A program made the translations under genes and the position numbers. A stretch of 64,000 bases of DNA from Chloranthus sessilifolius (Eukaryota; Streptophyta; Magnoliopsida; Chloranthales; Chloranthaceae), in contig CM037596.1 of the NCBI GenBank assembly GCA_021018995.1, forward strand, positions 89,101,184 through 89,165,183, read 5' to 3'. A model generated the notes under the pieces. It saw nothing but the letters and a program-made list of their open reading frames with translations, was not told the origin of the DNA and did not search any database. Shown here piece after piece: positions 7,768 to 64,000 of the stretch; position 1 is the stretch's first letter, and each line of letters opens with the position of its first letter.

Positions 7768-7772
7768 CCTAT

Positions 7773-24994: not shown

Positions 24995-25121
24995 GGATGT
25001 AGCTCACCCTATAGACTATACGTCGCAGGTCCATTACTAGCATGCCAGGCTTGAGGCGATCGGTGAGTCGGACCTTGCGGCCGGTGACGAGTTGGAGCCA
25101 CCTCCTGAGGACTTCTTCTAG
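24995..25121 (+). other. Conserved LTR acidic module, solo LTR B
   Basis: TGTAGCTCACCC and CTATACGTCGCAG precede GT and an acidic frame ending LEPPPEDFF-stop at 25121. A stop just after the AG|GT means the frame is open only in its second half here; in the LTRs of D it is fully open. Confidence 0.55.
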
Positions 25122-25938
25122 AGGACTCCGTTGTGCCACTTTGAGGGATTTTTGGAGAGAGTTTTGTACGGCTTGGTATGTCAAGCCTTGATTCTGATTT
25201 ACACCATGTATATATATATATAGATGGGATTATTCTTTTGGGGCGAACCATCCGTGATGATTGCTATCATCGATGGTTCGAATCGGTTCTCCATTCATGT
25301 AGAGGCATGAGGGTAGAATTGTCTTTTGGAGAGTTAATTAATATAGATTCAAATTCCGCAATTTCGTTTATTATTTTATTACAATGCTTGATACACCAGT
25401 GTTCTGTGCTTAGCTAAGGGGCACGGTCAAGACGATCGTGCTGATGGCACGGGTTTCGGGGTGCCGAAACCCGAGCTGTCACAATTGGGGTCAGACCTAC
25501 AATCGGCTTGTTAAAGCTCCCAAGGGCGTGGTGGTTCTCGATGAAGATGAGGAGGAGGATCCAGGGCACGACGCACCAGAGCCTGATGCTCTTGCACCCG
25601 ACCAGCCCCCACAGAGCGACATACTCATGCTCTCGGAGTTTACTCGCCAGATGACTGCCGTGAGCCAACAGATACAGGAGCTCACCCAGCATACCAGCTC
25701 CATGCATTGAGAGTTAGATGTTCATGGTGGGGCTCTCACCTACTTGATGCAGCATGCCTTCCCCACAAACTATGCCACTTATATGGCTGGCATCCGAGCC
25801 TCCGTTCACCACCCTTCGGCATCGAGCACCGGTCCCTACATGCCTACTAATGCCGGTGTTGATGGTTCGGACGACGATGCTGATGATGGGGACGGTGACC
25901 AAGTTCAGGTTGGTCCAACTGCTACGGGGGAGTTTTAG

Positions 25939-28791: not shown

Positions 28792-31112
28792 GCTGCTGAA
28801 GTCAGCCGACCGACGCTTAGTAAAGGAGTCAACCCGCAACCCGCAAAGCGTGATCAGTGATGAGTTACAATGTCGATAAATATCTGTAGTTGGCAATCGC
28901 ATCAACCCAGGTATTCTCCATTTAAAATTCGCCTTCTTTTATTTTTCTGCATTTAAATATTGTTCTAGTATATCTCCCATCGCAATAGAGTCCACCCGGA
29001 CTGAATTGGGCCACTTATTTCGGAACCCGAAAGGGGCCCAGAAAAAGCGCGTACCAACAATCACGCAATCAAACACCACCTCTGATCCCCTAATGTGTTT
29101 GATCGAAGAGCCACAAGGCTCCCCTTAGTGCAACCATAAAAAAAAAAGTCACCACCAACAATCTTCCCTTGCGATGTTGAGACCCGAGGTAGAGGGAATT
29201 TAATTATTTATTTTTACTTTGACTCATTTGATTAATTTGTATGTTTGAACAATAAATTGTGCCTTAAACCCATCATTCCTTAGCTTCGGACCATTTATTT
29301 AATTAGTCATGTTTGAATGTGTAATGCCATTGATTGCTAATCTCCACTTTAAAATTTATTTAAATAATTAATTTCATGTATACTAGGACATGCATGTTAG
29401 TTCCTATTTATATGATGATTATACTCTTGAAAAAAATTATCTAGCATAAAAATTGGAGGTAGATGCTGAAATTTCATTTCGGACCAATTTGAGTTTTTCC
29501 CTAACTTGATGTAATCGTAAAAATTTCTATAGACCTCTAATGGATGTGCTGTCAAATGGGTGATGTAGAGGGCAATGCCCTATAATAAAACTATTCCAAT
29601 ATCTGAGAATAAATTAGACCCTAGTCACCTTGAAAATCGACCCCAAGACGCCTACTTTAAAATCTGCACAGAAAATTCCCGTATATGATTTCTAAGTATT
29701 CTCTAAATTCACATTTGACCTTTGATCAAATACCTATATGAGTAGAATCACGAAATTTTCTGTATGATCACCCCTCCAAACTTTTCATGATCTTCACATC
29801 TGACGGTTAGAATTCTCTGGTACTAACATGAATTATAAAAGTTAAATTTTTGACTAAGTAGGTCCTAATTCGATCGGATTGTATCATAACTACAGAATTG
29901 TTTTATACATGGGTAAGTCGCATTATTTTGTGGTCATGAATGATCAAACAAGTTAGTAAGATTTTGTTTATTCTTATTGTATTGTCTATCCACATAATTA
30001 TCAAGCATAACGTATGCGTCATGAAATAAGAAAAAGACGACATGAATTCACGATATGGATTTAAATAGACACGGATTTAAAAGTAATTTAACACAAATAA
30101 AAATAGACACGGCATGAATTTACAACAAGGAAAGTCAATGATTATAATTATATGTACGCTAAAGACAATCAATCGTTCTGCGTGTGTGATTTTCAATTTT
30201 AAATAGGATCCCATCATGTCATGTCAAGACATGGACCAAGCACGAGCTACCACGATGAATAGGAGCTATAGCTAATCATGAATATTGTTCCTAGGTGATG
30301 ATGGACGGGACCCCATCGGTATAATTATTACTTTAGTTTTAGCACCTAATATGTGCGAAAAGTACTTTAAGTTAGTATTTAAGTCATGCAATAACTACAA
30401 GACATGTGTCACTGTGATTAGTCTATTTCTCACGGGTTTGTTTCACGAAATATGAAAGCACTCAAATTTTGTCGTAAATAAATTATGTAAAATTTTAGAC
30501 ACATAGCCTTTGAAAATCTCTATCTCATAATCATAAATTTTGCTAGCTTTCCCATGTCTTATGATATATCTATCTCTAAATTATTGTCACATTAATTCGA
30601 TAGATTTTGTACATGTTGGTTAATTAAATGTTTCAAGTCATGGAGGGAAATTAACTCCTCCCTACTAAGCACCGTGAAAATTTTTGCTTACCCTCACACT
30701 AAGTGTCGCAGGTACAGACGTTGACAAGGATCTTGAGTTAGAAGAGGATCCTGATTTCATGCCTAAAGACGAGGAAGATCTCACACCTGAAGAATTTTAT
30801 CCTTAGTGAGAATTATTTGATTAAGATTTGATACGACTTAATAAACTTTTTTTAGAATATTTATTTATAATTTTTATTTATATTTGATTAAGATTTGATA
30901 CGACTTAATAAATTTTTTTTAGAATATTTATTGATATAAGTACCAATGTTTATGTGGCGTACGACCATCACCAATGGTATTTTTAGATTAGTATTTTCAT
31001 TTATGAATGTTAAAATTATTTATTTCAGTTTAGTAAGTAATTTGATTATTACTTTTATAATATTATTTAAAATAAATAAAAAAATTGGCTCATGTTTTCT
31101 GAAATAAATTAC
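28792..31112 (+). repeat. F4-type LTR, copy 2, rear part
   Basis: Continues the LTR interrupted by element A. The first 300 bases match F4 copy 1 (10810-11080). It has an acidic module near its end: TGTCGCAG|GT, then a frame with LEEDPDFMPKDEED and a TPEEFYP-stop end at 30806. The remainder is AT-rich with no coding signal. It stops where the LTR of element E begins (31113); ATTAC at 31108-31112 may be the target duplication of E. No primer site follows. Confidence 0.6.
30703..30806 (+). other. Conserved LTR acidic module, F4
   Basis: AGTGTCGCAG|GTACAG opens an uninterrupted acidic frame of about 31 codons (VDKDLELEEDPD ... EEFYP-stop). Same layout as the modules in LTRs A and B but clearly diverged, which argues that the peptide pattern, not only DNA, is kept. 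Confidence 0.55.
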
Positions 31113-31407
31113 TGTGATAGCCCGACTTTTACCCTTCTCGAAAATGGGAAAGGTCGCATCGTCGGATCACCTACAATGATCCTTTCTTACAAGTGCATCG
31201 TGTACAAAGTTTTACAATTGCAGAAGCAATAACTCTGATACGAAGAAATATGGCACAATTGATATCCATTCCTTTATTTAAAGCAGTAAACTGAACAGGA
31301 AATATAAATAGAAAACCTATACATGCAATAGTAAACTATCTCAAACCATACCATACTGCTGAATTATACATGTTTTAAAAAAATCTATCTATCACTCTCT
31401 CTCAAAT

Positions 31408-31530
31408 CTATTTAGGAAAGAATTCTTCCACATAATCTTTCTCTTCGTCTCCCTAGTCCTCCTCCACCTCAGGATGGTAGGTAGGATCAGCCTCGTGTTC
31501 AGGGTCCGGATTAATATCTGCAGCTAAGAC
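31408..31530 (-). other. Conserved LTR acidic module, element E 3' LTR
   Basis: The minus strand carries AAGATTATGTGGAAGAATTC-like coding for an acidic frame (NPDPEHEADPTYHPE ... EEFFPK-stop). One in-frame TAG interrupts it here; the 5' LTR copy at 51594-51712 has no such stop. Confidence 0.5.
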
Positions 31531-31834
31531 ATAAAGTAGTAGGATGAGCTATCATCAAAGCTCAGCAGGGAAATTTAAAGTGCTACTTTATTTGTTAGAT
31601 ATCCAATTCATTTCTAAATGCATAAATTACAAAACTAAACACATTATATCTTACCTTGTATCTATTCTAACAACATTTAGCATTTATTTTAGCAACATAT
31701 AGTATAACAAGCAATAAATCATGTAAATATTATATCATGCTGCACAAATACAAGGAATTATACTAACAAAGAATCATACTGGATAATTACAGAAATTATG
31801 CTGAAACAAGACCTATATAAGAAATAAGAAAATC

Positions 31835-32030
31835 AATCACCCGAGTTAGCGAGATCACTTGTCAAGATCCCGAGTTAGCTGAATTACTTGGACCGAGAAA
31901 ATCAAGCTCCCGATTTAGCAGGATCACTTGGACGAGATATCAAGCTCCCGAGTTAGTGGGATCACTTGATCCGAGAAAATTAAGCTCCTGAGTTAGCAGG
32001 ATTACTTATTTCAAGACGAGAATAAAGATG
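31835..32030 (-). repeat. Tandem hairpin repeat in LTR E
   Basis: About five units of roughly 40 bases each contain CAAGCTCCCG, AGTTA, then GCGGGATCACTTG. The arms CAAG..CCCG and CGGG..CTTG pair, so each unit is a stem-loop. The 5' LTR copy (51955-52110) has four units. Confidence 0.85.
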
Positions 32031-33135
32031 TGTATATGACCTCAAGGATAACAGTACGTGAATAATGCATGCTAACATGTATGCAAGAACATCATGAACA
32101 TATATGATATAGCAAAACCGAACTAGTATAACTGAGTTAGCATAGCTATTCATATTCATGCATTGAAACTGATCTTATCATCATTTGTACATAACTGATT
32201 GTATAATCATTTATAATCACACATCTAACTGAATTAGCATAATAGTCCTATGGCACAACTGCTTGGATCCTTATCATGCATATCTATTCATCAAACTTGA
32301 CACGAGTATAGTCATGCAAAGAAATTCATTTAAACTGAAATTAGCATAATCATTAATATTCATCTATGGAACTGAGCTAACAATTCATCAAAACTGGTCT
32401 AGCATATTCATTCATTAATCATACATCAAATCTGACCTATACTTTCATCATGATTCATAAACGCATCTATTATCTATGATTATTATACATGATTATACAT
32501 GAGCAATACATGATTATCATTAATTAGAATTATTCCTCTAAACTGATTTAGCATTATCCCGTTATCACTATATATGTTAGTATAATTCTTTAACCATAAA
32601 TTAACACTGATTTCATTAGTATCATATCCATCCCAACTGATATGAGTTCATTATAAAAACTAACATTATCACATGCATTTATCATCAACAAAACTTATTG
32701 GCATCCTTATAAATCCCTAATCATCATTTAAAGCTGCCTTTATAATCCACGACTATCATGCTGACATATATTCATAGAATAATCCTATGTCGAGTTGAGC
32801 TAGCATGGTTCGAGCATCAAAGTTCATGGTATAACCATATATGGCATTGATCTTACTATCATCATAGCTTAGTATACCTCAGTAGAACTAGAATAACTAG
32901 CATATTTATAACAACTGAAACTATTACTAGCATATGGATCAAACTAACATAGGCATAATTATAACTTGTTAATCAGGGATGAATTCAAAAATAAAATATC
33001 AATTAACAATGTAAACTCCCTACCTGATCACATATGTTTCCTTGAATCTGATTGGATGTGCGCTCATGCATCCGAGACCATCATTATCATCTAAATTTCT
33101 CAAAACTAGTTATGTGCACCATGTTGCACCTATCA

Positions 33136-35065: not shown

Positions 35066-35379
35066 AAGGGATTTTCGTCCTCGAAAATAAAAGAAGGCGG
35101 GGAAGTGAGATCAGTGAGATCAGATTCGGTTATATGTTAAGCATATCCCATTAGAAGGCAGGGTAAACATAATTAGGTATAACAGATTTAGAACAATAGA
35201 AAGTAAACTGAATCATGTGCAGTATCATGTGCCAGTATATAGTGTATCAAAATCGAATATCCATTGATTTCTCTACTACATAATTATGCGGGCAATGCAT
35301 ACGAAACTTTTATATATACCATATGCCGTAAGTTATTCTAAGAACTTCATAAATTATTTACCTTAAGGAAATAAATGGG

Positions 35380-38300
35380 GATACTGAGCATGACTATCAG
35401 CTTCACGTTCCCAGGTATCCTCATGAGAACTATGATTCGTCCATTAGACCACTACGAGTGGAATACATTTTGTTCTCAAGATTTGGTCTTGGTGAGCCAA
35501 ACTGGCTCATCAGTCACTTATCTAGGGGCTGATAATCCAACACGTGTGTTGGATCATTGACATATTTTCGTAGCATAGATACATGGAAGACGTCATGGAT
35601 AGTAGATAACTGTGGAGATAACACAACTCTATATGCAACCTCCCCAACTCTACCCAAAATTGGGAATGGTCCAATATAACGAGGACTCAATTTTCCTCAT
35701 TTCCCAAATCGCATCATGCCCATTTATCGAAGATATTTTGATAAAGACATGATCGCCAATTTGTACGGTATATGGTAGAGATCATCATAACTCCTCTATC
35801 GATTCTGGGTACTCTTCAGTCGCTCATGAATGACGTTTACAACTGCATTGGTATTTTCGATCAAGTCAGGGCCCAAAAGAAGATGTTTACCAGTGTCTTT
35901 CTAGTTAATCAGAGATTTACATCAGCATCCATACAGTGCCTCGAATGGTGCCATACCAATGCTCTACTGGAAGCTGTTATTATATGCGAATTCGATCAGG
36001 GATACGTGCTTATCCCATGATCCTTGGAAATCAAGCATGCAGGCCCTTTACCCTTCTGTCTGACTGTCGGTCTGAGGATGGACTGCAATACTGAATTCAA
36101 ACTTAGAACCCATACCTTCTTGGAAACTCTGCCAAATTCGCGAATTATATAAAGGATCATGATCTGCCACAATACTCATGGGTATCCCATGTAATCGTAT
36201 AATCTCCCTCAGATAAATTTTAGTCAATTTCGACGTTGTATATCGCGTACTATAGGATAAAAAATGCGCCGACTTGGTGAGATGATCAACAATCACCTAA
36301 ATTGCATTGTAACCCTTTTGCGTACAGAGCAAACTGAGAATGAAAATCCATTGAGATATTTTCCCATTTCCACTCTGGAATGGGCAGCGGCTGTAACAGA
36401 CCAACAAGGTGCTTGTGCTTGACCATTACTTGTTGACAAGTCAAACACTTCGCAGCATATTCCACTACATCGCATTTTACGCCATTCCAGCAAAATGTCT
36501 TCTTTAAATCTTGGTACATCTTTGTGCGACCAGGATGGATGACATATGCTGATTTGTGTGCTTCCATCTCACTATAGCCTCTATCTTTGCAAGATCTATG
36601 GTAATACCGGCTTCAGAAATGACATGACCAAGAAAACTAACTTGATTCAACCAAAAGTCACAGTTACTAAACTTCACATACAACTGCGAATTTCTCAATG
36701 TCTATAACGTAAACCGCAGATGACTTGCATGCTCTACTTTCGTCTTTGAGTAGAGGAGAATATCGTCGATGAATACTATGATACACTGATCTAAGAGTTG
36801 AAGACTCGATTCATTAAGTCCATAAAGGATGCAGGAGCATTGATCAACCCAAAGGGCTTGACGAGAACTCGTAATGACTATAATGTGTCCGAAGAGCTGT
36901 CTTCGAAATATCTTCAGCTTTCACTTTCATCTAATGATACCCCAATCGTAAGTCAATCTTTGAATACCATCGTGCTCCTTATAACTGCTCGAAGTGATCG
37001 TCAATTCTGAGGAGCGGATAATAATTTTTAATCGTCAGTTTATTTAATTGACGATAGTCAATGCGAAGATGCATTGACAATCTTTCTTCTTCACGAACAA
37101 TACCAGTGCGCCCCATAGAGACACACTCGGTCTGATAAACTCTTTATCAAGAAGCTCTTGCAACTGCTCTTTGAGCTCTTTCAATTCCGCTGGTGCCATT
37201 CGATAAGGCGCCTTTGATACCGGCTCGGTGCCCGGGGTTAAATCAATAGCGAATTCCACTTCCCTGACCAACAGAAATCCTGGCAACTCATCAGGAAAGA
37301 CATCAGGGAATTCATAGGCTATTGGCAATCTACTTCTACAATCAATGCTCTCATGATGATTGGATAGCCAGTCCATGCCAAGAATTACGGCGAATCCTTG
37401 CATATCGAGTAAATTGAGTACGATCAATCGGCTACTGCTTCATAGTCGTCGTGACCTTGGAGTACGACGATGACGACGATGATTGATCGACATACCATAT
37501 TAGTAGTGGTAGACTGTCTAGTTGGGACTGACACATCACAATAAAGTCGAGAGGTTCTGGAGTGGCTCCCAACTTTCCTAACTTTACAACAAATTGGGTG
37601 TAGCAAAGGAATGTGCCGATCCAAGATCTACCAAAACATGTACCTCATACAATAAGTAGGCATCCTTTGGATAAAATTATAAGGTATCTAATATATATAT
37701 ATACTAGTGTTAGCTAAATTGTGTCAACTTAACAAAATATAAATTTATCATTGCTAAAACTGATGAAAAGAAAATAATATACTAGATGCACACATATATA
37801 ACTAAATATAAATTTACCTAGATGCACGTTTCTCATAAACAATTTAAATAACTTATAACTAAATAGATAATATCATTGTTGGTTTGGGCATCTTGTGCCG
37901 TTTTTGATGTCGTTCCCACCATCTCTGGGCATTCCTTAATCCGATGTCCCATCATACCACAACGAAAGCACGCCCCAGGCGCTCTACGACATTCATCCAT
38001 GTTATGTATCTTTCCATATTTTCTACTAAATGCTAACAGAATGGATGAAGAGATGCGTAAAGTTTGTGGAACTCCGAATGCTCCTGTTATAGTAGGGTTC
38101 GAGTGACGGAATGACCCCGAAGGTGTATATATAGTCTATTTCGGATAAACACCTTGAGCAGGTTACTGAGATTCGGGTGTCGCCTTTTTTGTTTTTACCG
38201 TAGGAAAATCTTTTATCAGATGTCCTAGTCTGCCACATCTGAAGCACTCACCTGTGGCCCACCTACATTTTCCCGTCTTGTGTTGTATTCAGCACCATGA

Positions 38301-38781: not shown

Positions 38782-38793
38782 CCTGTGACAGCC

Positions 38794-41141
38794 TATGATG
38801 ACCCGACTTTTCCAATCCCTAAGGTATAGGAAAGGCTTCATCAACTTATTGATTTCTCAATATGCCGTGACAAATAGAAGCCAGCAACATAACAATGATC
38901 TAAAGACAGAGGCAAAGCATAGAATAATCAACAACAAAAGCTTTTAACAACAAAAAAATATAGCGCTCTGAGGAACCAGGAAGAACCACCGGTGATGGTC
39001 AATCCAACACCTAAAATAGTGGTTCACAATAATGGTTCCTCGTGTGATATCAAAAGGATAAAACAATGGCCTAAGGCCCAATATTCAAATAATATTCTAA
39101 CAAAAGTACCAAAAGAAGAGATCTAGAATCAAGGGAAAAACTCCTCAGCAGGTGTATCCAATTCCTCCTCAGAAATGTAATCGGAGTCCTCCAGATCCTC
39201 TGATCCTAGGTCAGTCTCAGCACCTGTGACGTATAGTCGAGGGTGAGCTAACAACAAAGCCCAATAGAGGAAACATGTCTATTTGCATTTCATTATAAGT
39301 AAAGGTTTTCAAAGACAGAAATCGGATCAAGTATGGTTTTCAAATGATGCTTTGCAAACTAAATCTCCAGTTCTAATTATGAGTCAAAATTAATAACATT
39401 AATCTGATATTTTCAAAAACTTCCGAATTAGCATGCTTCTTGTCTTAAATTTATAACTTAATTTTATCTCTCAAATTTTCTATAGCATGAGAGCGGACTA
39501 CGTGACCGATGGGAAACCCTACTGACCATCGTCGTTCATGAATCCATCTTCTAAATAGCAACAAGCCCCTACACTATGAGGGAAACTTGCGCTAAAATAA
39601 ACACCGTCCACACGGTTGGTAGGATCTAGGGCATCTTTCGTATGTTCCTCAAATCGAATGCAAATGCTAACTTATATCAAAGCTTATTATTCATAACATA
39701 TTACAGATTTTTCCAAATTCTGAGTCGAAATTCTCATTCAAAAATTAACTGAGGTTCTGAGATTCAAATTTCAAAGTTCTTAGTCATAACAAAGTTTCCA
39801 AATTTCTGATTTGTATCATATTTCAAATTCTTATTCATGCTGTTTTCAAACAATTGTTCTCAAAATTTATGCTTCTTATCAAGCAGTCAAAACAGTCCCT
39901 ACTTATAATAGAATGCAAATAATGTGTAGGGTTCCCCTACCTCAACAATGACGATTCAAAAACAAGCATAAGCAGTTCGCACAAAGGACTCCCAATATTC
40001 AAAACCTACAAAGATTAACACTCTCAGTGTTAATATAGAACCAAAAGTCAAACCCAAAAGCTTGCCTATAAAATTTTTAACTAAAAATTCAAAGGACAGA
40101 AACAGAACAAAAATTGACCCTCAAATTTGAATTCGATGGTCGAATTTGAAATTCGATGCTCGAATTCAAATTCGACCCTCGAATTCTAAAAACTGCATCA
40201 GGCATAAAAATTAGAAAATCGACCCTCGATTTTCAATTCGATGGTCGAATTCCAAATTCGACCCTCGAATTTCAAAAAACTGCATCAGGCCTTAAAAATC
40301 AAATTTCGACCCTCGAATTTCAAATCGATGGTCGAATTCCAAATTCAACCCTCGATTTGAAAATCGACCCTCGAATTTCTTCAGGTCTGTGTTTGTCAAA
40401 CTTTTCATATCCGGACTCTTTTCTTTCTCATTCAACCATAGCCTGTGTAACTAAAATTCACACCAGTTTTCTACTCTATTCAAAACATAAATTCAAACAA
40501 CATAAGGAGGTTTTAAAGCCTACCTCTTGTCGTTTAATCCGTTGGTTCCCATTGCACCAAAATTAAGCAACGGAACCAAACATGAAGGTTTAATAGATCT
40601 AGAGCTTCCAATCAATTCATGATTATAATGAGGTTGCCTCTGCCTCAGCAACCAACAAAATCACACAACACTTACCACTCTCCCCCTATCTCTCTTTCAA
40701 TGCATCTAACTGATCATCACCACTTGGCAAGTCTTTCTAACGGTCGAGATGGGGAGAGGGAATTTCAAAACTCACAAGATCTAGGATCAAGATGAGGCAA
40801 TGTTTGTAGGCTTCCAAAAATCCAACGAGAGAGAGAAGTTACACTTCTCTTTAAAATCTCTCTCTTATAATACAAAACAAAGCAAAACAAATATCTAGAT
40901 TTTTTTCTATTTACCACTTATCCACTTAACTTGCAAAAGTTTTCGATGTTGAACACAAACACCTACCTTATTGTGTAAGTCATCGATTACATGACTTGCA
41001 CACATCTCGAGACAAAATCCTTTGGCCATTATTCTCATCAAACACATAGCTAATCAAAAATCCAGAAAAATCCCTCAATAATTTTTGGACACGCTTATCG
41101 AAGTAAACGAAAAATAGGCCAAAAATATTAGGGATATTACA
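38794..41141 (-). repeat. Element C 3' LTR
   Basis: On the minus strand it starts TGTAATATCCC and ends GGGTCATCATA, a decayed TCGTCACA. The motif array is at 40113-40380, the acidic module at 39129-39224 (ending TPAEEFFP-stop) and the GGAACCA/TGGTTCC hairpin at about 38970-39045. Confidence 0.95.
40113..40380 (-). repeat. Motif array GAGGGTCGAATT in LTR C (3')
   Basis: About ten copies of AATTCGAGGGTCGA(A/T)TT and GACCATCGAATT, interrupted by repeated CTGATGCAGTTTTT linkers. It is longer than either array of element A, so copy number differs inside one family. Confidence 0.9.
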
Positions 41142-41783: not shown

Positions 41784-43157
41784 CTAAAACTCCCCCGCTA
41801 CAGATGGACCAGCCTGATCCTGATCACCATCCCCATCATCATCAGCGCCATCATCATCAGAGCCATCATCCGCACCAACAACACCCCCATTGGTATGCAT
41901 GCTAAGACCTGCTCCGTATGTGGAAGGGTGGTGAACGGACGCTCGGATGTCGGCCATATAAGTAGCATAATCGGTGGGGAAAGCATGCTGCATGAGGTAC
42001 GTCAGAACCCCGCCATGTATCTGCAACTCGTGGCTCATAGAGTGGGTATGCTGTGTGAGCTCCTGGATCTGCTGGCTCACAGCAGTCATCTGTCGGGTGA
42101 ACTCCTAGAGCGTGAGTATGTCACTCTGTGGAGGCTGAGTGGGTGCAGGAGCAGCAGTCTCTGGGGCAACATGTGTCGGGTCCTCGTCCTCATCTTCCTC
42201 ATCAGGAACTACCGCTTCCTTGGGAGTCTTAACAAGTCTACCGTAGGTCTGACCCCAATTGACGAGGTTATATAGTTTAAGACCGTCAATAGATTTCGGT
42301 TCTGTAGGGGGAATATCATACGCTAGGCCCGCTCGATAAATCTCTATCATAACAGAAATCAAACGAGCATAGGGAATGCCCTTTTCGGCTTCTTGATTTG
42401 CTTCCCCATTTTCTCTTGGGTTTTAATAATTCCCTTCAAAATTATTTCAGGGGCACTAAACCAACACTCCTTGTAAGCGGCAAAGAGGATCTGCTGGAGG
42501 GAAACAACACGCTCATATTTGTGACCAAACGGGTAGACGGTTGCCTTGAATATTTTGTCCAAAAGCCACATGGATTCGGGCATGTGTGTACGGACAATCG
42601 ATTTACCCGACCCATGACGACCCTTGGTCATTTGGGTAATAACCTCTTGAAAAGGGGCAGGTTTAGGGAAAGGAGGACCTAATCCCATTGTCTTAGAATG
42701 TGCCAAAGGGCAACACATTGCCACGGCAATGTCCTCTAGGTAAAAAGTATAGTCTCGTCCACCAATTGAAGTATATATTTTCTTACCATCCTCACGGCGC
42801 ATATGTTGATAAAATAAGCACACTAAATAAGGATAGAAATGATCACTAAAGGCGGTACAAAGCGAAGTTAATTGGGCTTTTTCCAAATATTCCGTTGCCG
42901 ACTGAGTGGTTATTTGTTGATCAAACAACTCTGGGTGAAATACATACTCAGTGGTGAAGCCCTTTGTGCCCCAAAATTCATTGGGTTGCTCCCGGATTGG
43001 AGGGGACACAGGTGGTGGAATTGGCTGTGGGGGTGGTGGAGCCGACTGAGAAGGTGTCTGATCGGGCTGTGGGGCTGGCTGTTTAGATTGCCTTGAAGAT
43101 GCAGCCTTTGAAGCTGGTCGTTTAGAGGTTGGATTTCGAATGGGAGCTTGCTTTTAA
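41784..43157 (-). pseudogene. aORF of element C
   Basis: The copy is colinear with the aORF of A. The expected start codon near 43157 reads ATA and a stop follows almost at once, so initiation is lost. The domain keeps FYPYLVCLFYQ, MTKGRHGSGKSIVRTHMP, MWLLDKIFKATVYPFGH and CWFSAPEII. A one-base shift near 42372 precedes the PYARLI motif, and a TAG lies near 42102. The C-terminus keeps an acidic linker, SQQIQELTQHTHS and an Asp/Gly tail ending GEF. It is uninterrupted by insertions, and so shows the full layout that is split in A. Confidence 0.78.
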
Positions 43158-43433: not shown

Positions 43434-43590
43434 TCGAGAAAATCGACCCTCGATTTCAAATTCGTGGGTCGAATTTCAAATCGACCCTCGATTTCTCCAT
43501 AAATTTCTCAAGCCGTATTTTGGCCTAAACTACCTAAGTACTATTCATCCAAAATCGACCCTCGAATTGGATTTTCGACCCTCGAATTTC
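43434..43590 (-). repeat. Motif array GAGGGTCGAATT in the pol-aORF spacer of C
   Basis: Five or six copies of AATTCGAGGGTCGATTTT-like units, the same motif as in the LTRs. It ends about 280 bases upstream of the aORF start position, as in element A. Confidence 0.85.
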
Positions 43591-48948: not shown

Positions 48949-48950
48949 AC

Positions 48951-51300
48951 TGTGACGACCCGACTTTTCCAATCCCTAAGGTATAGGAAAGGTCAGTTCA
49001 TCAACTTATTGATTTCTTAATAAGCCGCAACAAACAGAAACTGGCAACATAACAATGATCTAAAGACAGAGGCAAAGCATAGAATAATCAAAAACAAAAG
49101 CTTTTAACAATAAAAAAATATATCGCTCTGAGGAACCAGGAAGAACCACCGGTGATGGCCAATCCAACACCTAAAATAGTGGTTCACAATAATGGTTCCT
49201 CGTGTGATATCAAAAGGACAAAACAATGGCCTAAGGCCCAATATTCAAATAATATTCTAACAAAAGTACCAAAAGAAGTGATCTAGAATCAAGGGAAAAA
49301 CTCCTCAGCAGGTGTATCCAATTCCTCGTCAGGAATGTAATCGGAGTCCTCCAGATCCTTTGATCCTAGGTCAGTCTCAGCACCTGTGACGAATAGTCGA
49401 GGGTGAGCTAACAACAAAGCCCAATAGAGGAAACATGTCTATTTGCATTTCATTATAAGTAAAGGTTTTCAAAGACAGAAATCGGATCAAGTATGGTTTT
49501 CAAATGATGCTTTGCAAACTAAATCTCCAGTTCTAATTATGAGTCAAAACTGATAACATTAATCTGATGTGTTCAAAAACTTCTGAATTAGCATGCTTCT
49601 TGTCTTAAATTTATAACTTAATTTTATCTCCCAAATTTCCTATAGCATGAGAGCGGACTACGTGACCGATGGAAAACCCTATTGACCATCGTCGTTCATG
49701 AACCCATTTTCTACATAGCAACAAGCCCCTACGCTATGAGGGAAACTTACACCAAAATAAATACCGTCAACACTGTTGGTAGAATCTAGGGCATCGTTCG
49801 TATGTACCTCAAATCGAATGCAAATGCTAACTTATATCAAAGCTTATTATTCATAACATATTACTGATTTTTCAGAATTCTGAGTTGAAATTCTCATTCA
49901 AAAATTAACTGAGGTTCTGAGATTCAAATTCAAAGTTTTTAGTCATAACAAAGTTTCCAAATTTCTTATTTGTATCATATTTTCAGATTCTTATTCATGT
50001 TATTTTCAAACAATTGTTCTCAAAATTTATGCTTCTTATCAAGTAGTCAAAACAGTCCCTACTTATAATAGAATGCAAATAATGTGTAGGATTCCCCTAC
50101 CTCAACAAAGACGATTCAAAAACAAGCATAAGCAGTTCGCTCAAAGGACTCCCAATATTCAAAACCTACAAAGATTAACACTCTCAGTGTTAATATAGGA
50201 CCAAAAGTCAAACCCAAAAGCTTGCCTATAAAAATTTTAACCAAAAATTCGAAGGACAGAAATAGAACAAAAATCGACCCTCGAATTTGAATTCGATGGT
50301 CGAATTCAAATTCGACCCTCGAATTCCAAAATCTGCAACAGGCATAAAAATTAGAAAATCGACCCTCGATTTTCAATTGGATGGTCGAATTCCAAATTCG
50401 ACCCTCGAATTGGAAATCGACCCTCGAATTTCAAAAAACTGCATCAGGCCTTAAAAATCAAATTTCGACCCTCGAATTTCAAATCGATGGTCGAATTCCA
50501 AATTCGACCCTCGATTTGAAAATCAACCCTCGAATTTCTTCAGGTCTGTGTTTGTCAAACTTTTCATCTCCGGACTCTTTTCTTTCTCATTCAACCATAG
50601 CCTGTGTAACTAAAATTTACACCAGTTTTCTACTCTATTCAAAACATAAATTCAAACAATATAAGGAGGTTTAAAAGCCATCCTCTTGTCGTTTAATCCG
50701 TTGGTTCCCATTGCACCGAAATTAAGCACCGAAACCAAACATGAAGGTTTAATAAATCTAGAGCTTCCAATCAATTCATGATTATAATGAGGTTGCCTTT
50801 GCCTCAGCAACCAACAAAATCACACAACACTTACCACTCTCCCCTATCTCTCTTTTCAATGCATCTAACCGATCATCACCACTTGACAAGTCTTTCCAAC
50901 GGTCGAGATGGGGAGAGGGAATTTCAAAACTCCCAAGATCTAGGATCAAGATGAGGCAATGTTTGTAAGCTTCCAAAAATCCAACGAGAGAGAGAAGTTA
51001 CAATTCTCTTTAAAATCTCTCTCTTATAATACAAAACAAAGAAAAATAAATATCTAGATTTTTTTCTATTTACCACTTATCCACTTAACTTGCAAAAGTT
51101 TTCGATGCTAAACACAAACACCTACCTTATTGTGTAAGTCATAGATTACATGACTTACACACATCTCGAGACAAAATCCTTTAGCCATTATTCTCATCAA
51201 ACACGTAGCTAACCAAAAATCTAGAAAAATCCCTCAATAATTTTTAGACACGCTTATCGAGGTAAACGAAAAATAGGCCAAAAATATCAGGGATATTACA
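48951..51300 (-). repeat. Element C 5' LTR
   Basis: 2,350 bases, TGTAATATCCC to GGGTCGTCACA on the minus strand. The array is at 50273-50539 and the acidic module at 49289-49384. Visible differences from the 3' LTR are mostly single substitutions plus a small array indel, consistent with an older insertion than D. Confidence 0.95.
50273..50539 (-). repeat. Motif array GAGGGTCGAATT in LTR C (5')
   Basis: Same unit and linkers as the 3' LTR array, with one unit gained and one lost relative to it (around 50300 and 50415). Confidence 0.88.
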
Positions 51301-51305
51301 CAGCC

Positions 51306-52215
51306 CGACTTTTCCACTTCTCAAAAATGGGAAAGGTCGCGCCGTCAGATCACCTACCATGATCCTTTCTTACAAGTGTATTGTGTACAAAGTTTTACAA
51401 TTGTGGAAGTAATAACTCTGATACGAAGAAATATGACACAATTGATATCCATTCCTTTATCTAAAGCAGTAAACTAAACAGGAAATATAAACTAGAAAAC
51501 CTATACATGCAGTAGTAAACTATCTCAAACCATACCATACTGCTGAATTATACATGTTTTAAAACAATCTATCTATCACTCTCTCTCAAACCTATTTCGG
51601 AAAAAATTCTTCTGTAGAATCTTTCTCTTCATCTCCCTCGTCCTCCTCCTCCTCAGGATGGTAGGTATGATCAGCCTTGTGCTCAAGGTCCTGATTAATA
51701 TCTCCAGCTAAGATTTTCAATTCACTTTTAAATGCATAAATTACAAAACTAAACAAATTATATCTTATCTTGTATCTATTCTAGCAACATTTAGCATTTA
51801 TTCTAGCAACATGTAGTATAACAAGTAATGAATCATACAAATATTGTATCATGCTGCCAAATTCATACTGCACAAATACGACGTATTTTACTAACAAGGA
51901 ATCATGCTGAATAATTATAGAAATTATACTGAAATAAGATATATACAAGAAATAAGAAAATCAAGCTCCCGAGTTAGCGGGATCACTTGAATGAGATATT
52001 AAGCTCCCGAGTTAGCGGGATCACTTAGACGAGATATCAAGCTCCTGAATTAGCAGGATCACTTGGACCGAGAAAATCAAGCTCCTGAGTTAGCGGGATC
52101 ACTTGTTTCAAGACGAGAATAAAGACGTGTACATGACATCAAGGATCACAGTACATGAACAATGCATGCTAACATGTATGTAAGAACATCATGAATAGAT
52201 ATGATATAGTAAAAC
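51306..52215 (-). repeat. Element E 5' LTR, continuation
   Basis: After the CAGCC duplication the LTR of E resumes and matches 31121-32120: AGTCGGG edge, acidic module (51594-51712, open, ending EEFFPK-stop) and hairpin units (51955-52110). It lacks the segment equal to about 31530-31590. Similarity stops near 52215, where other sequence begins; the rest of this LTR is not found in the window. Confidence 0.85.
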
Positions 52216-52675: not shown

Positions 52676-53029
52676 TGTGACAGCCCGGATTTTGGCATCC
52701 CGAAACCCGTGCCATCAACACGATCATCTTGACCGTGCCCCTTAGCTAAGCACAGAACATTGGTATATCAAGCAACATAAAGTAGTAAATGAAACTACGG
52801 AATTTAAATCTATATAAAAGCATTTCTCAAAAGACAGTTCTACCCTCATGCCTCTGCATGAATGGAGAACCGATCCGAACCATCGATGATAGCAATTATC
52901 ACGGATGGTTCGCCCCAAAAGAATAATCCCAAAACCCAATATATACATTGTTCAATCAAAACAAGGCTTGACATACCAAGCCGTACAAATCTCTATCAAA
53001 AAGCCCTCAAAGCGGCACAACGGAGTCCT

Positions 53030-53133
53030 CTAGAAGAAGTCCTCAGGAGGTGGCTCCAACTCTTCGCCGGCCGCAAGGTCCGACTCACCGAGGTCAACGT
53101 CTCCTGAAGCCTCGGCAGCTGCTAGTAGTGGAC
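53030..53133 (-). other. Conserved LTR acidic module, LTR D
   Basis: GTAGCTCACCC and CTATACGTCGCAG lead into GT and an uninterrupted frame of about 35 codons (AAAEASGDVDLGESD ... PPPEDFF-stop). The 5' LTR copy (63655-63758) is also open. Confidence 0.6.
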
Positions 53134-54140
53134 CTGCGACGTATAGTCTATAGGGTGAGCTACATCCTAGCTCAATAGGGAACAAAACACCGTTGAACAT
53201 ATAAATTATTACTCACATATATTCCATGATATGCCATGCATGATGTGTCTATGCAGTTATTGATGAAAACAGTTAAAAAGCATTACATTTTACTGGTAAT
53301 TACTTATATTTTCATTTATTCATGAATGATGCTGAAAAGGCTTAAAACAAAACTTAAACTTTCAACTTAAGTAATCCCCGAGCAATATAGCATCGAGCCC
53401 CGATGAGATACCCATCATTGTCATCTATATAGACACTTTTAACGTATTCCCTGGGAATACAATATAGTACCCAAGCCCCTTTCCCCTGGGGATTGGTGGC
53501 GGGGTTTCACTTGTCTCAAATCAACACCCCTGGGGTGTGCTTACTGTGTACGGATAAGCCTCCGCACTGGCCTACGGTTTCGCCGCCGTATCGGTCACGG
53601 ATATCCTGCCGTGTCAGTCGTGGATATCCCGCCACGTCGGTGGGGTACCCTATCAAACCTCAAATAACAAAAATATCGGTGCCTTAAATATAGTTATTCA
53701 CCGTGTAAGTGTGCTATCTTCTATCAGTTAGGCCCTATCAAACATGATTCAATCTTGGATACAGCCCTGGGATGTATCCATTCACTTGCATCACACCTGA
53801 TGCTCTTATCTCTTTACTTCTTCATCCCCTGGGGATGGCTCATTATAATTACTCTTATGGATGTCACACACACACACTTTTCACAATTCTTAAGCAATAA
53901 AACATTTTGAATTTGAATTCTATATCACTACATACATGCTCTTTCAAAATAAAGTACATGTTCAAGGTGTTCCCTACCTCAAGTCTTTGTTTGATCAACG
54001 CATCAAGGTCCCACGTGGCTCCTTGTGTACTAGCTCACACGTACCACCTATGGTACCACATAACAGGTGAAACACATCACTAAGGATGCAATAAACATGA
54101 AGCTTAAAGTCAAACTCAAAAGTCAACAAAATTTAGCCCA

Positions 54141-54620
54141 GTCGATTAATCAAACACCAAAATCGATTAATCGATTCTCATTCGATTAATCAAATTCCAA
54201 AATCGATTAATCGAAAGTCAATATCGATTAATCGATTCTTAAATTGATTAATCGAGATTTTCATTCGATTAGTCAAATCCCAATTCGATTAATCGAAATT
54301 CTCTGCACTGCCAAGTCGATTCTCAATTCGAGTCATCGAGTTCCCAAAATCGATTAATCGATCCCAAATCGATTAATCAAAATTTGAAATCGATTAATCG
54401 AAATCCCATTTCGATTAGTCGATTTTCCCCAAGTCATTTCCTCCAGCCCCCTGGGGTCCACTGGAGGTCCCCAGTCGATTAATCGATATTCAAATCAATT
54501 AATCGAAATCCAAAGTCGATTAATCGAAATTCAGTTCGATTAATCGAACTCGGGTTCCTTGACTTTTCAACTTCTTGGCGAATTTTGATTAATCGAACCT
54601 CAATTTCGATTAATCGAAAT
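54141..54620 (-). repeat. Motif array TCGATTAATCGA in LTR D
   Basis: About twenty copies of TCGATTAATCGA and one-base variants, usually followed by AAAT or preceded by ATTT. Copy order differs from the solo LTR although flanking sequence aligns. Confidence 0.92.
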
Positions 54621-55182
54621 TGCCAGATTCAGCCTTTGAGCCGCCTTTTTTCCACTCTTTTTCCTCTATTTCTCTACACTTTTATCCGACATTTTACACA
54701 TATTTCTAACCACTATTTACCCTTACAATCCATGCATTTAAACTACATAACTCTTACCTTCAATCAATTTCAAATTGATTTCAAATCCATGGTTGGAAAG
54801 GCTAGGGTTCCAGCTTTAGCTTGAACGGATTCTCCTCGCTAAATCAGCCTCTTTAATGCTAGAATCCCCCTTCCAATCCCTCACAATAATGCTTGCTCAA
54901 ACTCTTACTCCTCTCTCTCTCTTCTTTACTCCTTCAACAACCAATTTCCAGAATTTTAGGGTTATTAAACCCTTTTATCTTTCCCTTTCCCTGTGTGTTG
55001 AACACATACACCGCAAAGAGGTGTGCATTTTCCATCATACACCACATAAACACTCAACTCATCACATCTCATCCGTTCATCACACCCCTTACTAACTATT
55101 TGACTTCTATTTGGTCAAACCTATGACCGTTCGGGCACGGATCCCGAGGTCACAGTTTAGCATGATTTTTCGGGCTATTACA

Positions 55183-55553: not shown

Positions 55554-57050
55554 TCAAGTGGTGGTGGACTGTGGTGAGCAATGGAGGTAGCGGCGGTTGT
55601 GGTGGAAGCGTCTCAGTCGGCGGAGCGGATGTGGATGTGGAAGGAGCCGCGTTGGTAGTGGCTGTGGTAGGATGGAAGACGGGTCCTCGATGGAAGGTGG
55701 TGCGTCATTGTCACTCCTCTTCTGGCGAGGCGGTGAGTCGGTAGGGTAGATGTGGCGGAGGGTATGGAATAGAAGGAAGTCCATCTTCCGGTTCATCCTT
55801 TCATTGTTGGCCTCCATACGGGCCAACACCTCCTCGATGGTCGGCCCTGATGAAGCGGCGCGCCGGCGGTAGGATGAGGTGGGTGTCACGGGCGCGGAGT
55901 GGGCTGGCGGTGTCGGTGAGGCTGCTGTGTGAGAGGTGGCCCTCTCCCCTGAAGGCTCGGCTGGGTGTGCCCCACCCATGGGTGGGTCCTGCTGTGGTGG
56001 TGGGGGTGGTGGCGGTGCTACTCCTGCTGCTGCTGCGGCTGGAGCGGGACCCGGAGCCGGTAGGGTCTGCTTTAGCAAATTGTAGCTACGGTTCCATGAA
56101 GACATGGAGAATGTCTTCACGCAGTCCGTAGCCCTCTCTTCATGAGGAGAGACAGCGTACGATGGATCGTTGGAGTAGCACTCCAACATGCTCGATATAA
56201 GACGAGCGTAAGGCATCTTCTCCTTGGGCCGGAGGTTGCCCTTCATTAGCTTCCCTTTGATATACCTCATCCCCTCGAGGATGAGCAGGGTGGCATCAAA
56301 CCACCGGCCACAGAAGGCCGAGTAAAGTGCTTGTTGCACTTTTTCCACGCGCTCGGTGTCGTGGCGCATAGGGTATAGGTTGCACTTGACCACCGAGTCA
56401 AGCATCCACATATAGTAGGGAAGGTCAACCCTCTTTATGGAGGAGCCCGACCCCTTTTTACCATTGGTCATGCGGGTCATGACCTCCTCGAAGCGAGGTT
56501 CCTCCTCGAAGGGTGGGAATAGGGTGGTCTCAGGGGTAAAGTCGAGGTAGCACTCAAGCACCTCGTGTATGTGACGATGTGTGATCGTGTAGTCTCGACC
56601 CTCTATGGTGGTCTTGATCACATCGTCGGTCGGGCCGTCCACAAGCCCTTGGTAGAATAATCTCACCAATCTAGGGTAGTAAGAACCCTGGATTGGTTTG
56701 AGAAGGTTGTCGAGACCTGCGTTGTTGAGGTAGTTTCGAGCCCATTGGGTCTCGCCCGGTACATCGGGATTTGTGAATAGGGTTGGGTCAATAATGTATT
56801 CGACCTCGAAGGTCTTGGCCGCCCACCACTAGTTTGGTTGCACCACGTTAGTGGGTGGTGGGGGCATTGGGGTCGATTCGCAGGAAGACTCGCGCGAGGA
56901 TGCGCTCGTCGAACCGGAGGTGGTCTCCGATGCTGACGGTGATGGAGTCCTCACCGGCGATGGGGTAGGTGGTGGTGGCGCGGCGTTCTTATGCCGAACC
57001 AGGAGCTTAGAGGTTGCCTTCTTTGAAGACAATCAGGTCTTTGGCGGCAT
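55554..57050 (-). pseudogene. aORF of element D, nearly intact
   Basis: About 499 codons. I place the start at ATG 57050 (MPPKT, like MGPKK of A); codon 6 is TGA, and a second stop, TAG, is at 56826-56828. Otherwise one frame runs to 55554. A basic Ser/Pro-rich N-terminus is followed by the domain: YYPRLVRLFYQ, MTNGKKGSGSSIKRVDLP, MWMLDSVVKCNLYP, FCGRWFDATLLILEGM and MPYARLI. A Pro/Ala-rich linker, a short coiled-coil-like segment (IEEVLARMEANNERMNRKM) and a basic Pro/His-rich end complete it. It contains the best evidence that this ORF was under protein-coding constraint until recently. Role unknown. Confidence 0.8.
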
Positions 57051-57280
57051 GGTGGGTGAAATAGCAAAATCTAGGGCTTATTTAGTTCAAATTGAAGGAA
57101 AAAGTACGAATCTAGGGTTTACCTTAGGTTTCGATCTGAAATGGAGCGATCTTGGTCGAAAATCGACGGATAATGTTCAAAACCCTAGTACGGATGGATG
57201 GCCGGAGAGGAAAAAGAAAGGGCGCTCAAAAAAACTCAAGTGCAAATGATTCGAATGGGAAGAAAAATCCCCAAATTTCA

Positions 57281-57287
57281 ATATATA
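57281..57287 (-). promoter_or_regulatory. Candidate TATA box for the aORF of D
   Basis: The minus strand reads GCCTATATATTGAAA between the motif array and the aORF, about 230 bases before the ATG. Same position as the TATA-like site in the Athila-like element. Confidence 0.4.
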
Positions 57288-57295
57288 GGCCCCGG

Positions 57296-58041
57296 CTCGA
57301 TTAATCGAAATCCAGAATCGATTAATCGAGATTTCAAATTAAGTTAAGCCGTGTAAAATTGATTAATCGATTTCCCAATTCGACTAATCGAAAGTCAAAT
57401 TCGATTAATCGAAACCATTTCGATTAATCGAAATCTTATCTGTTTAAAATTTTAAGTTTTTGAGCTCACTGGCGCGAGCCAGTCGATTAATCGAAATCCA
57501 TTTCGATTAATCGAAATTTCAAAATCGATTAATTGAAATTCACTTCGATTAATCGAAATCGTGCAATAACTTCCAAAATTTCAGGATTGCTTAAGTTATT
57601 CGATTAATCGAACTTCGGTTCGACTAATCGAAATTTCAAATCGATTAATCGAATTCCACTTCGATTAATCGAAATCATTCTTCTGACTTCATATTTCTTT
57701 CAAGTCCCTTCAGTAATTCGATTAATCGAAACCTCCTCGATTAATCAAAATTTCATTATTTCCTTCCTAATTTCTTTTAACATTCTTAGTTTGTTCGATT
57801 AATCGAACATGTGGTTCGATTAATCGAATACTTAATTCGATTAATCGAATTTCCAAAATCGATCAATCGATCCCAAATCGATTAATCGAATTTATAAATC
57901 AATCAATCGAAATTGCATTCTATGTCTGTTCTAACTCTCATTCCAATTTCCAGTCACTGGCAGATGCCAGTCGACTAATCGAACAAAATCGATTAATCGA
58001 AATCCCAAATCGACTAATCGATTTGAAATTTGATTAATCGG
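57296..58041 (-). repeat. Motif array TCGATTAATCGA in the pol-aORF spacer of D
   Basis: About thirty copies of TCGATTAATCGA or one-base variants fill most of the spacer between the pol stop and the aORF. The motif is the one in this family's LTRs. The array ends about 245 bases before the aORF ATG. Confidence 0.93.
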
Positions 58042-58255: not shown

Positions 58256-61200
58256 TCACGTCGTTGGAAACAAGGCTGGATATTGTTCTTTCACATCGGC
58301 CTCTCGTTCCCAAGTAGCCTCTTCTTTTGGATGATTGTTCCACCGAACAAGCACTAACGGAATCACTTTAGTGTGCAGTACTTGTTCCTTTCGATCCAAG
58401 ATTTCCACCGGTTCCTCTATCATGCTCATGTCCTCACACATCTCCATAGGTTGTTTTCCTAACACGTGAGATGGATCATTTACATACTTTCTGAGCATTG
58501 ATATGTGGAAAACGTTATGTACCCGATCAAACAGCGGTGGTAAGCCAATGCGATACGCAACTTCACCTACGCGTCCCAAAATTTCAAATGGTCCAACATA
58601 ATGTGGGCTTAACTTCCCTCTCTTGCCAAATCTCATTACGCCTTTCATAGGTGACACTTTCACAAACACGTGCTCACCCACATTATAGTCGACACTAGTC
58701 CACTTCATGTCGGCGTAACTTTTTTGTCTACTCTGTGCTGACTTCAGCCTTTCTCTGATGATTCAAACAACGGTGGCGTTGTCTTCAAGTAGATTTGGCC
58801 CTAAAACAAATTTCTCACCTGTTTCCTCCCAATTGAGGGGTGATTTGCATCGTCGTCCATACAGAGCTTCATACGGTGCCATGCCAATGCTCGTTTGGAA
58901 GCTGTTGTTGTATGCGAATTCGAGCAACGGTAGATACTCATCCCAGTATCCTTGCATATCTAGCATGCACGCTCTGAGCATGTCTTCTATTACTTGGTTC
59001 ACTCGCTCTGTCTGCCCATCAGTTTGAGGATGGAAAGCTGAACTAAAGTCTAGTCATGTTCCCATTCCTTCTTGAAATTTCTTCCAAAACTTGGATGTAT
59101 ATAGTGGATCACGATCTGAAACTATGCTGCTTGGAATCCCATGTAATCTTACAATCTCCTTCATGTATAAGTCGCGGTCTTCTCAGTATACGTAGTATTG
59201 TACGGCAAAAAGTGTGCTGATTTGGTCAATCGGTCTACGACGACCCAAATGGCATTGTGTCTCTTGGCAGTACGGGGCAATCCAACAATGAAATCCATCA
59301 AGATTGATTCCCATTTCCATTCTGGGATTGGTAAAGGCTGCAATAGTCCAACAGGATGTCTATGATCAATCTTCACTTGCTGACAAGTCAAACACCGTGA
59401 CACGTATTCGGCCACGTCTTGCTTCAGTCCTCTCCACCAGTAGTTCTTTTTCAAGTCTTGGTACATTTTGGTGCTACCAGGGTGGATAGCATAATTTGAC
59501 TTATGGGCCTCATCAAGAATCGTTCGCCTTAGATCGGCATTGTCCGGAATGCATAGACGGCCCTTAAACAATAAAGAACCATCTTCTTTAACTGAGAAGT
59601 CTGACCTGATGCCTTCACTCACGTCTTGATGAATCTTTGTTAATGCCGGATCTTTCATCTGTAGGTCGTGGATATGCTCAAATATCACTGGCTTTACTGA
59701 TATGTTAGCCAAAAAGGATCCGGTGGCTTTTGACTCAATGTTTGCATCGTAGAATGCCAGGTCTTCCAATAATTTCCATCGGTGCATACCCAAAACCAAA
59801 CAAGCTAACTGAGCTGAACCTTTCCGACTCAATGCGTCGGCTACTACATTCGCCTTGCCTGGATGGTATTGTATGGAGCAATCATAATCCTTGAGGAATT
59901 CCATCCACCTGTGTTGTCTCATGTTGAGCTCTTTCTGTGTAAACAGGTATCGGAGGCTCTTATGATTGGTGAAAATTTAAAAAGTCCCACCATACAAGTA
60001 ATGTCTCCAAATCTTCAGCGCAAAAATAACTACTGCTAGTTCCAAGTCGTGAGTCGGGTAATTTTTCTCGTGTTCTTTCAGCTGTCTTGATCCGTAAGCT
60101 ATCACCTTCTTGTGTTGATTGAGCACACAACCCAAACCGTTGTATGACGCGTCGCTGTACACGGCGTATCCTCCACTGCCTGAAGGAATCGCTAACACTG
60201 GAGCAGAAGTGAGTCTCGTTTTGAGTTCTTGAAAACTCTTCTCGCATGCCTCACTCCACTCAAATCTTGAATCTTTTCGTGTCAGCTTTGTGAGAGGTCC
60301 TGATATCTTTGAAAACCCCTCGACGAAACGTCGATAATAGCCTGCTAAGCCTAGAAAACTTCGGACATCGGTCACTGTCTTTGGTTGCTCCCATTTAACC
60401 ACTGCTTCTATCTTTGTTGGATCTACAGTGACACCATGCTTTGAGACGATATGTCCCAAAAAGCTAACCTCTTCCAACCAAAACTCACATTTGCTGAGTT
60501 TGGCATACAATTGGTGTTCTCGTAGCGTCTGTAGAACAATCCTCAAATGTTCTTCGTGTTCCGTCTTGGATTTGGAGTATATCAATATATCATCAACGAA
60601 TACTACGACGCAGGAGTCCAAATGTGATTTAAACACTCGACTCATCAGATCCATAAACGACGCCGGAGCATTCGTCAATCCAAACGGCATCACAAGGAAT
60701 TCATAGTGTCCATACCGTGTCCGGAAAGCTGTCTTCTGGATGTCCTCTGCCTTGACTCGCAACTGATGATATCCAGATCTCAGGTCGATCTTGGAAAAAT
60801 ACCTTACTCCTTGCAGTTGGTCGAATAGATCATCAATTCTAGGCAAAAGGTAGCGGTTCTTCACAGTGAGTTTGTTCAATTGTCGATAGTCAATGCATAG
60901 CCGCATTGACCCATCCTTCTTCTTGACAAACAAGACCGGTGCTCCCCATGGAGACACGCTCGGTCTAACAAACCCCTTGTCCATAAGTTCTTGCAGTTGT
61001 TCCTTTAACTCCTTTAACTCAGCAGGAGCCATTCTATAAGGCGCTTTCGAAATAGGCTCCGTTCTCGGTGCTAAGTCAATGGAGAATTCCACCTCTCTCT
61101 CAGGAGGTAATCCAGGCAATTCCTCTGGAAACACGTCGGCGAAGTCTCGCACAACTGCTATCTCCGAAATGACATTCTTTTCTTCCTTGTCCTCCTTTAA

Positions 61201-63300: not shown

Positions 63301-64000
63301 TGTGACAGCCCGGATTTTGGAATCCCGAAACCCGTGCCATCAACACGATCATCTTGACCGTGCCCCTTAGCTAAGCACAGAACATTGGTATATCAAGCAA
63401 CATAAAGTAGTAAATGAAACTACGGAATTTAAATCTATATAAAAGCATTTCTCAAAAGACAGTTCTACCCTCATGCCTCTGCATGAATGGAGAACCGATC
63501 CGAACCATCGATGATAGCAATTATCACGGATGGTTCGCCCTAAAAGAATAATCCCAAAACCCAATATATACATTGTTCAACCAAAACAAGGCTTGACATA
63601 CCAAGTCGTACAAATCTCTATCAAAAAGCCCTCAAAGCGGCACAACGGAGTCCTCTAGAAGAAGTCCTCAGGAGGTGGCTCCAACTCTTCGCCGGCCGCA
63701 AGGTCCGACTCACCGGGGACAACGTCTCCTGAAGCCTCGGCAGCTGCTAGTAGTGGACCTGCGACGTATAGTCTATAGGGTGAGCTACATCCTAGCTCAA
63801 TAGGGAACAAAATACCGTTGAACATATAAATTATTACTCACATATATTCCATGATATGCCATGCATGATGTGTCTATGCAGTTATTGATGAAAACAGTTA
63901 AAAACCATTGCATTTTACTGGTAATTACTTATATTTTCATTTATTCATGAATGATGCTGAAAAGGCTTAAAACAAAACTTAAACTTTCAACTTAAGTAAT
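63301..64000 (-). repeat. Element D 5' LTR (partial)
   Basis: The 700 bases match 52676-53375 with about nine substitutions and no indel. It includes the terminal hairpin and the acidic module (63655-63758). The LTR continues beyond the window. Confidence 0.95.

Follow-up and report, generated by a model that had tools for sequence, protein, structure and literature searches.

Paired, family-specific motif arrays suggest that an extra reading frame recognises its own family in plant Ty3-type retrotransposons

The 64,000-nucleotide stretch analysed here (the window; C13:89101184-89165183 of the 2.17-Gb Chloranthus sessilifolius assembly) is densely filled with nested Ty3-type long terminal repeat (LTR) retrotransposons. 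A profile search found pieces of an extra open reading frame (aORF) at four places in the window, in the elements designated A, C, D and Athila-like, and all four are array-bearing elements: in each, a single motif is clustered twice, once in the LTR and once in the spacer 5' of the aORF. Judged by sequence comparison, the array motif varies together with the aORF in eight families of the genome. We consider it likely that the aORF product is a VANC-like DNA-binding regulator of its own family's arrays at the LTR and at the aORF promoter, forming a self-recognition loop whose sign is likely positive.

An earlier sequence-only reading had claimed that every aORF-carrying element in the window repeats its motif at both sites, and the clusters lie where it placed them, far above the shuffled expectation. 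Motifs were counted in the window on both strands and compared with the mean of five dinucleotide shuffles. The D motif TCGATTAATCGA was found 66 times against 4.2 and the A/C motif GAGGGTCGAATT 48 times against 4.8 (both with up to two mismatches), and the Athila-like motif TTTCGATAGG 23 times against 4.6 (up to one mismatch); each is almost restricted to the LTR and spacer of its own family. In element D (minus strand), the 3' LTR (52676-55182, ends read) contains 19 sites at 54142-54617, and the spacer array contains 26 sites at 57297-58041. The D aORF (55557-57050, ATG read from the sequence) has in-frame stops in this copy and would encode a PF20167-like domain, a Pro-rich linker and a C-terminal helix. 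Element C (minus strand) carries 12 sites in its 3' LTR (38793-41141; array 40111-40372), 11 in its 5' LTR (48950-51300; array 50271-50531) and five in the spacer (43440-43583), next to an aORF in two overlapping frames (42108-43153). Element A (plus strand) carries four sites in its 5' LTR (13918-16044; array 14671-14740), seven in its 3' LTR (26560-28786; array 27323-27479) and five sites of the A/C motif in the spacer (21522-21685); its aORF (21862-22854) is split by a D-family solo LTR, and its target-site duplication is CAATA. The Athila-like element (minus strand) has nine sites at 7105-7470 in its 5' LTR (5770-8260, high end approximate, primer site sequence at the low end) and 11 in the spacer (2269-2589; up to one mismatch, both orientations), followed by a TATA box at ~2248-2253 and by the aORF, a 368-aa stop-free stretch at 489-1592.

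LTR status was established from self-alignment pairs, together with the ends and the primer site, and for the Athila-like element from LTR copies flanking its aORFs elsewhere. The paired LTRs are 90% identical in A (13918-16044 and 26560-28786), 94% in C (38793-41141 and 48950-51300) and 98.7% over 700 bp in D (52676-55182 and 63301-64000, the window end). Besides the clusters already claimed, the inventory now includes a fifth array, X (12005-12666; 20 sites of TTTGATCGATCAAA / TTGATCGATCAA), in an LTR whose own aORF is not in the window, and the array of the D-family solo LTR (22825-25490, plus strand; 20 sites at 23419-24019).

The description of the motifs as family-specific and common to both sites was upheld, although they are better read as palindromes, except for the Athila-like motif, which is non-palindromic and present in both orientations in each of its two arrays. 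The D motif is the palindrome TTCGATTAATCGAA and the E motif is CACGGACGTCCGTG (from position counts over the family loci), with inner core positions mostly above 90%; the A/C motif is the palindrome TTCGA-GGG-TCGAA, that is, TTCGA, a 3-bp centre and TCGAA. Neighbouring sites in D usually lie 18-22 bp from one another, most often 21 bp, and the next peak is at 41-43; in E the peaks are at 20-22 and 40-42, so that the spacing in both is two and four helical turns. The ratio of observed to expected CpG is 1.68 within the arrays and 0.66 elsewhere in the window.

Covariation of motif and aORF, which the earlier reading had put forward as a check, was observed across the eight families. Motifs derived de novo for the LTR side and for the spacer paired by family, only 2 of the 40,320 permutations being as good, with the X and Y rows alike. 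Motif similarity also tracked aORF similarity (Mantel r 0.55; 92 of 40,320 permutations). Families E and G have paired sites at corresponding places with ~22-bp spacing, and the motif has changed in concert, ACGGACGTCCGT in E versus a ACGGTCGACCGT-like sequence in the one G locus; families X and Y have the core TGATCGATCA in common and differ in the outer bases on both sides.

The arrays were also used for blind prediction. The sequence of array X matched LTR pairs 9.7-10.3 kb apart elsewhere in the genome, and two X elements (L084 and L085) ran, ahead of the 3' LTR, from the end of pol through seven X-motif sites to a PF20167-like aORF (lowest profile E-values 8e-17 and 4e-30). An LTR inserted in an A/C copy bears GGTGATCGATCACC and represents family Y; in the Y element L086, the end of pol is followed by seven sites, an aORF (9e-45) and an 18-site array in the 3' LTR. 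The prediction of a spacer array and an aORF from the LTR array was thus borne out in 3/3 loci fetched for the test (two X, one Y).

For the wider survey, first-look searches gave 42,712 to 65,615 candidates, of which 110 (D), 150 (A/C), 111 (Athila-like) and 123 (F) aORF candidates were scored, and family E was defined as the best 30 (L031-L060) of the 150 places scored in a genome search with PF20167. Six further PF20167 matches comprised four E-type loci, family F (CCTCGCGAGG) and family G (CGGTTGACCG and variants), and all six had a CG-containing array upstream of the aORF. Spacer sites were present in 29/30 D loci and 29/30 E loci, and downstream sites in 30/30 and 28/30, respectively. 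The downstream array of the E locus L039 lies ~100-175 bp inside an LTR: nine of 41 matches to this region start only at its position ~141-148, and six of these nine have a full-length partner on the same strand at a distance of 8.4-8.8 kb. At least three elements have an aORF flanked by copies of the Athila-like array region that are separated by 10.3-10.8 kb. Among divergent A/C copies (aORF identity 74-78%), seven of eight kept the A/C motif, and a Y LTR is inserted in the remaining one. The downstream array of family F (L075) recurs ~4-5.5 kb beyond several F aORFs.

The position of the arrays relative to TATA boxes suggests that the spacer is an internal promoter for the aORF. In D spacers, TATAWA occurs 5-20 bp past the last site in 26/30 loci, usually at 9 bp, as in the window copy (57282-57287, minus strand), against a background of 0.014. 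In E, a TATA box follows the LTR array in 26/27 cases and the spacer array in 11/29; past the spacer array it lies at 15 bp in the Athila-like element and at 14-62 bp in the six F spacers examined. The strict pattern was not found in A/C, X, Y and G spacers, nor in D, A, C, X and Athila-like LTR arrays. The median distance from the last site to the aORF ATG is 238 bp in D (n=25) and 97 bp in E (n=26). TATA-adjacent arrays fit transcriptional control of the LTR and of a putative internal aORF promoter at least as well as anti-silencing.

The aORF stretches of the window matched PF20167 (Transposase_32, labelled in Pfam only as 'putative plant transposon protein') with 16.6 to 34.9 bits, under the curated cut-off of 45 bits, and one C stretch gave no match at E <= 0.01. 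This cut-off is exceeded by 150 scored places in the genome (family E and others), and these places and the window stretches all align in one alignment (A3). When the aORF domain was modelled for two different families, VANC21 with its target DNA (PDB 9lnj) was the best structural match of both models, and by these models the domain may have a VANC21-like fold. The model of the first 250 residues of the Athila-like aORF gave no Foldseek match in PDB at E <= 0.001, and VANC21 was absent from the best 50 of its 222 matches. At the sequence level, profile A3 against PDB chain sequences yielded three chance-level matches, VANC21 not among them, and another sequence search of solved structures returned chance matches only. 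Protein searches with the D aORF found one protein, from Camellia sinensis (29% identity), and those with the E aORF or alignment A2 found none. The ratio of nonsynonymous to synonymous substitution rates (dN/dS), calculated on stop-free cores only, was 0.069 in D (22/30 loci) and 0.20 in E (17/30 loci).

Within the arrays, variants shared between copies, which are those that passed through transposition, had a frequency 5 to 17 times lower in the non-CpG columns of the motif than in the linkers, and singletons were reduced less or not at all; by this comparison, the motif cores are selectively conserved. Loci L015, L016, L017 and L025 were excluded from the D sets of this test and of the CpG-decay test described below.

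We infer binding, dimerisation, internal promoter activity and the sign of the effect as follows. The aORF would encode a regulator that has a VANC-like fold, binds DNA and reads the motif array of its own family; the sites of that array recur at intervals of two helical turns, both in the LTR and in the spacer 5' of the aORF. The protein probably binds as a dimer, because most motifs are palindromic and a helix is predicted at the end of the D protein. The LTR array would serve the promoter of the genomic RNA and the spacer array the internal aORF promoter, and the protein would act as a switch on these two promoters in no family but its own, closing a self-recognition loop. The likeliest effect would be positive, either activation or a VANC-like removal of silencing.

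In foamy viruses, the Tas gene lies 3' of pol. Its product, the accessory protein Tas (Bel1), has two targets, the LTR promoter and an internal promoter (PMC4929722, PMC8670036), as proposed here for the aORF protein. Unlike these vertebrate retroviruses, the elements described here contain many short family-specific repeats. VANC of the VANDAL (Mutator-like) DNA transposons of Arabidopsis is likewise element-encoded, and dense arrays of a short motif that varies by family occur in the noncoding DNA of its own element; VANC21 binds to arrays of YAGTATTAY, and loss of methylation results from VANC activity (PMC5735166). In contrast to VANDAL, the elements of the window are Ty3-type LTR retrotransposons, as indicated by the LTR pairs and, in D, by the reverse transcriptase (RT), the integrase zinc-binding domain and the chromodomain. 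Their arrays lie in the LTR and before the aORF, are mostly palindromic and contain CG, whereas the printed motifs of VANC21 and VANC6 lack CG and the VANC21 sites are in one orientation (PMC5735166). No sequence similarity between VANC and the aORF was found with profile A3 against PDB chains.

Plant LTR retrotransposons have for years been known to carry extra ORFs whose function is unclear (PMC7264820). The Retand aORF is also located between pol and the 3' LTR, is predicted to bind DNA and is accompanied by tandem arrays, but it is antisense and has a Transposase_28 domain, and the accessible sections describe neither LTR/internal motif pairing nor motif-ORF covariation (PMC11963269). In sunflower, the 3' aORF of Athila has the same Transposase_32 domain (PF20167), whereas the Tekay aORF is 5', with no known domain; the accessible sections describe no paired arrays for either, and the VANC analogy was posed as an open question (PMC11728184, PMC12844716), as was whether retrotransposon aORFs modulate their own epigenetic state (PMC12844716). 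Paired arrays are not described in the accessible sections of PMC7264820, PMC11963269, PMC11728184, PMC12844716, PMC5735166 and PMC12859917, and a literature search covering few subscription papers found no LTR retrotransposon with such arrays or with a VANC-like fold.

In most D spacers and E LTRs, the last motif lies 9-12 bp from the TATA box, where an operator or an activator site would both fit, and covariation of motif and aORF fits equally well with an autoregulatory repressor that, bound to TATA-adjacent arrays, would shut LTR and aORF transcription and spare the host. We regard such a repressor as rather unlikely, since the high copy numbers are no sign of strong self-limitation and the fold matched is that of an anti-silencing factor. 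The arrays could instead be read by host transcription factors or phase nucleosomes, the aORF having an unrelated role, for example an env-like one. The decayed motif of G resembles what we take to be the W-box core. Athila 3' aORFs have been discussed as env-like (PMC7264820, PMC11728184). We consider a host reader improbable, because motif identity follows the aORF clade, the array predicted the aORF at every locus fetched, the modelled aORF fold resembles VANC21, and eight differing motifs for one function would be unexpected of a host factor.

Tandem-repeat drift, in which slippage repeats copied between LTR and spacer by recombination have no binding role, was already disfavoured, and we find it very unlikely. 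It is true that TRF detects tandem structure, that the LTR and spacer of A have a short stretch in common, linkers included, and that exchange may happen: in the F locus L068 (2-776), sequence resembling that downstream of F aORFs is fused to the spacer array with nothing between, which is what recombination of two arrays with loss of the middle of the element would leave. However, in D and E the sites of LTR and spacer have the core in common but hardly the outer flanks, which argues against simple copying, the cores are conserved over the linkers, and the difference between E and G is symmetric and concerted. Most motifs, being palindromic, could form a short stem-loop, but a role as transcript hairpins, for instance in aiding aORF translation, is scarcely credible, given the non-palindromic Athila-like motif in both orientations and an E LTR array that lies upstream of its TATA box and so presumably outside the 5' part of the transcript.

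Several points qualify the self-recognition reading. Covariation, the prediction of 3/3 loci and the VANC21 fold match favour the earlier proposal that the aORF product regulates its own array, but CpG decay did not support escape of the arrays from methylation in silent copies: in three locus sets (two from D, with 16 and 10 of its 30 loci, and one of 30 E loci), the deaminated CpG fractions in spacer motifs and in the other spacer sequence were 0.080/0.073, 0.107/0.098 and 0.071/0.082. Motif CpGs on the downstream side were less decayed overall (0.078/0.145, 0.093/0.142 and 0.060/0.119), with no consistent difference in singleton rates between motif and other CpGs. The motif columns were picked by motif match and are thus biased to low variation, which the contrast of shared variants and singletons offsets only partly; dN/dS is biased downwards because the D and E loci were picked as the best protein matches among very many candidates; and the 5-20 bp TATA window was fixed after TATA positions had first been seen. 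The permutation counts are not strict probabilities because the families are related, the compared regions were drawn by hand around known arrays, and the Mantel test used an idealised G motif and set missing protein pairs to 20%. At up to three mismatches, one of 30 D and one of 30 E loci had no spacer sites, and two of 30 E loci had no downstream sites. Family G is a single locus, with a score of 0 for its own motif on the downstream side. The F downstream array is a candidate LTR array, and the CTCGCGAG array was a top motif in five of eight further F loci; among the exceptions, L068 has a decayed array, judged by eye, L071 none and L073 an inserted D-like array. As for copies that lack the aORF and yet keep equal arrays, the one fragment examined, from a chromovirus pol (35352-37439), had neither an aORF nor a palindromic array, a thin negative control.

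If the self-recognition reading is true, one family of extra ORFs gains a function, sequence-specific self-recognition extends from DNA transposons to an abundant class of plant repeats, and eight motif-protein pairs become available for testing; specificity switching is directly testable because related families differ by symmetric motif changes. A broader reading, which we hold tentatively and at somewhat less than even chances, is that PF20167-type aORFs are the retrotransposon branch of a VANC-like superfamily, acting as homodimeric, CG-motif-reading anti-silencing factors in Tekay-like, Athila-like and a third kind of LTR element, with a specificity that co-diversifies with the two-promoter arrays. 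Each family would then have a private escape from DNA methylation, and such systems would be far commoner in plants than DNA transposons suggest.

Element D, a chromovirus that we take to be Tekay-like, contains RT, RNase H, the integrase zinc-binding domain and, after integrase, a chromodomain (PF00385, 25.4 bits, cut-off 25.1); the C-terminus of its pol, with an SH3-like domain and the chromodomain, lies at 58259-58762 (minus strand), and its 5' LTR (63301-64000, minus strand) is cut by the window end. The Athila-like element has a protease domain, and TTGGCGCCGCTGCCGGGGA, presumably a tRNA-Asp primer site, follows its LTR; gag, RT and integrase were not identified in this copy. At 486-4809 (minus strand), its protease is followed by the spacer array and the aORF with no RT or integrase between, so the copy may be non-autonomous or have suffered a deletion. 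Within A/C aORFs there are insertions of D and Y LTRs (window 22825-25490; L079 1-1515, match orientation). Finally, a 38-40-bp tandem repeat at 31862-32007 and 51958-52105 is common to two stretches that are 79% identical and otherwise separate (31080-32118 and 51269-52215).
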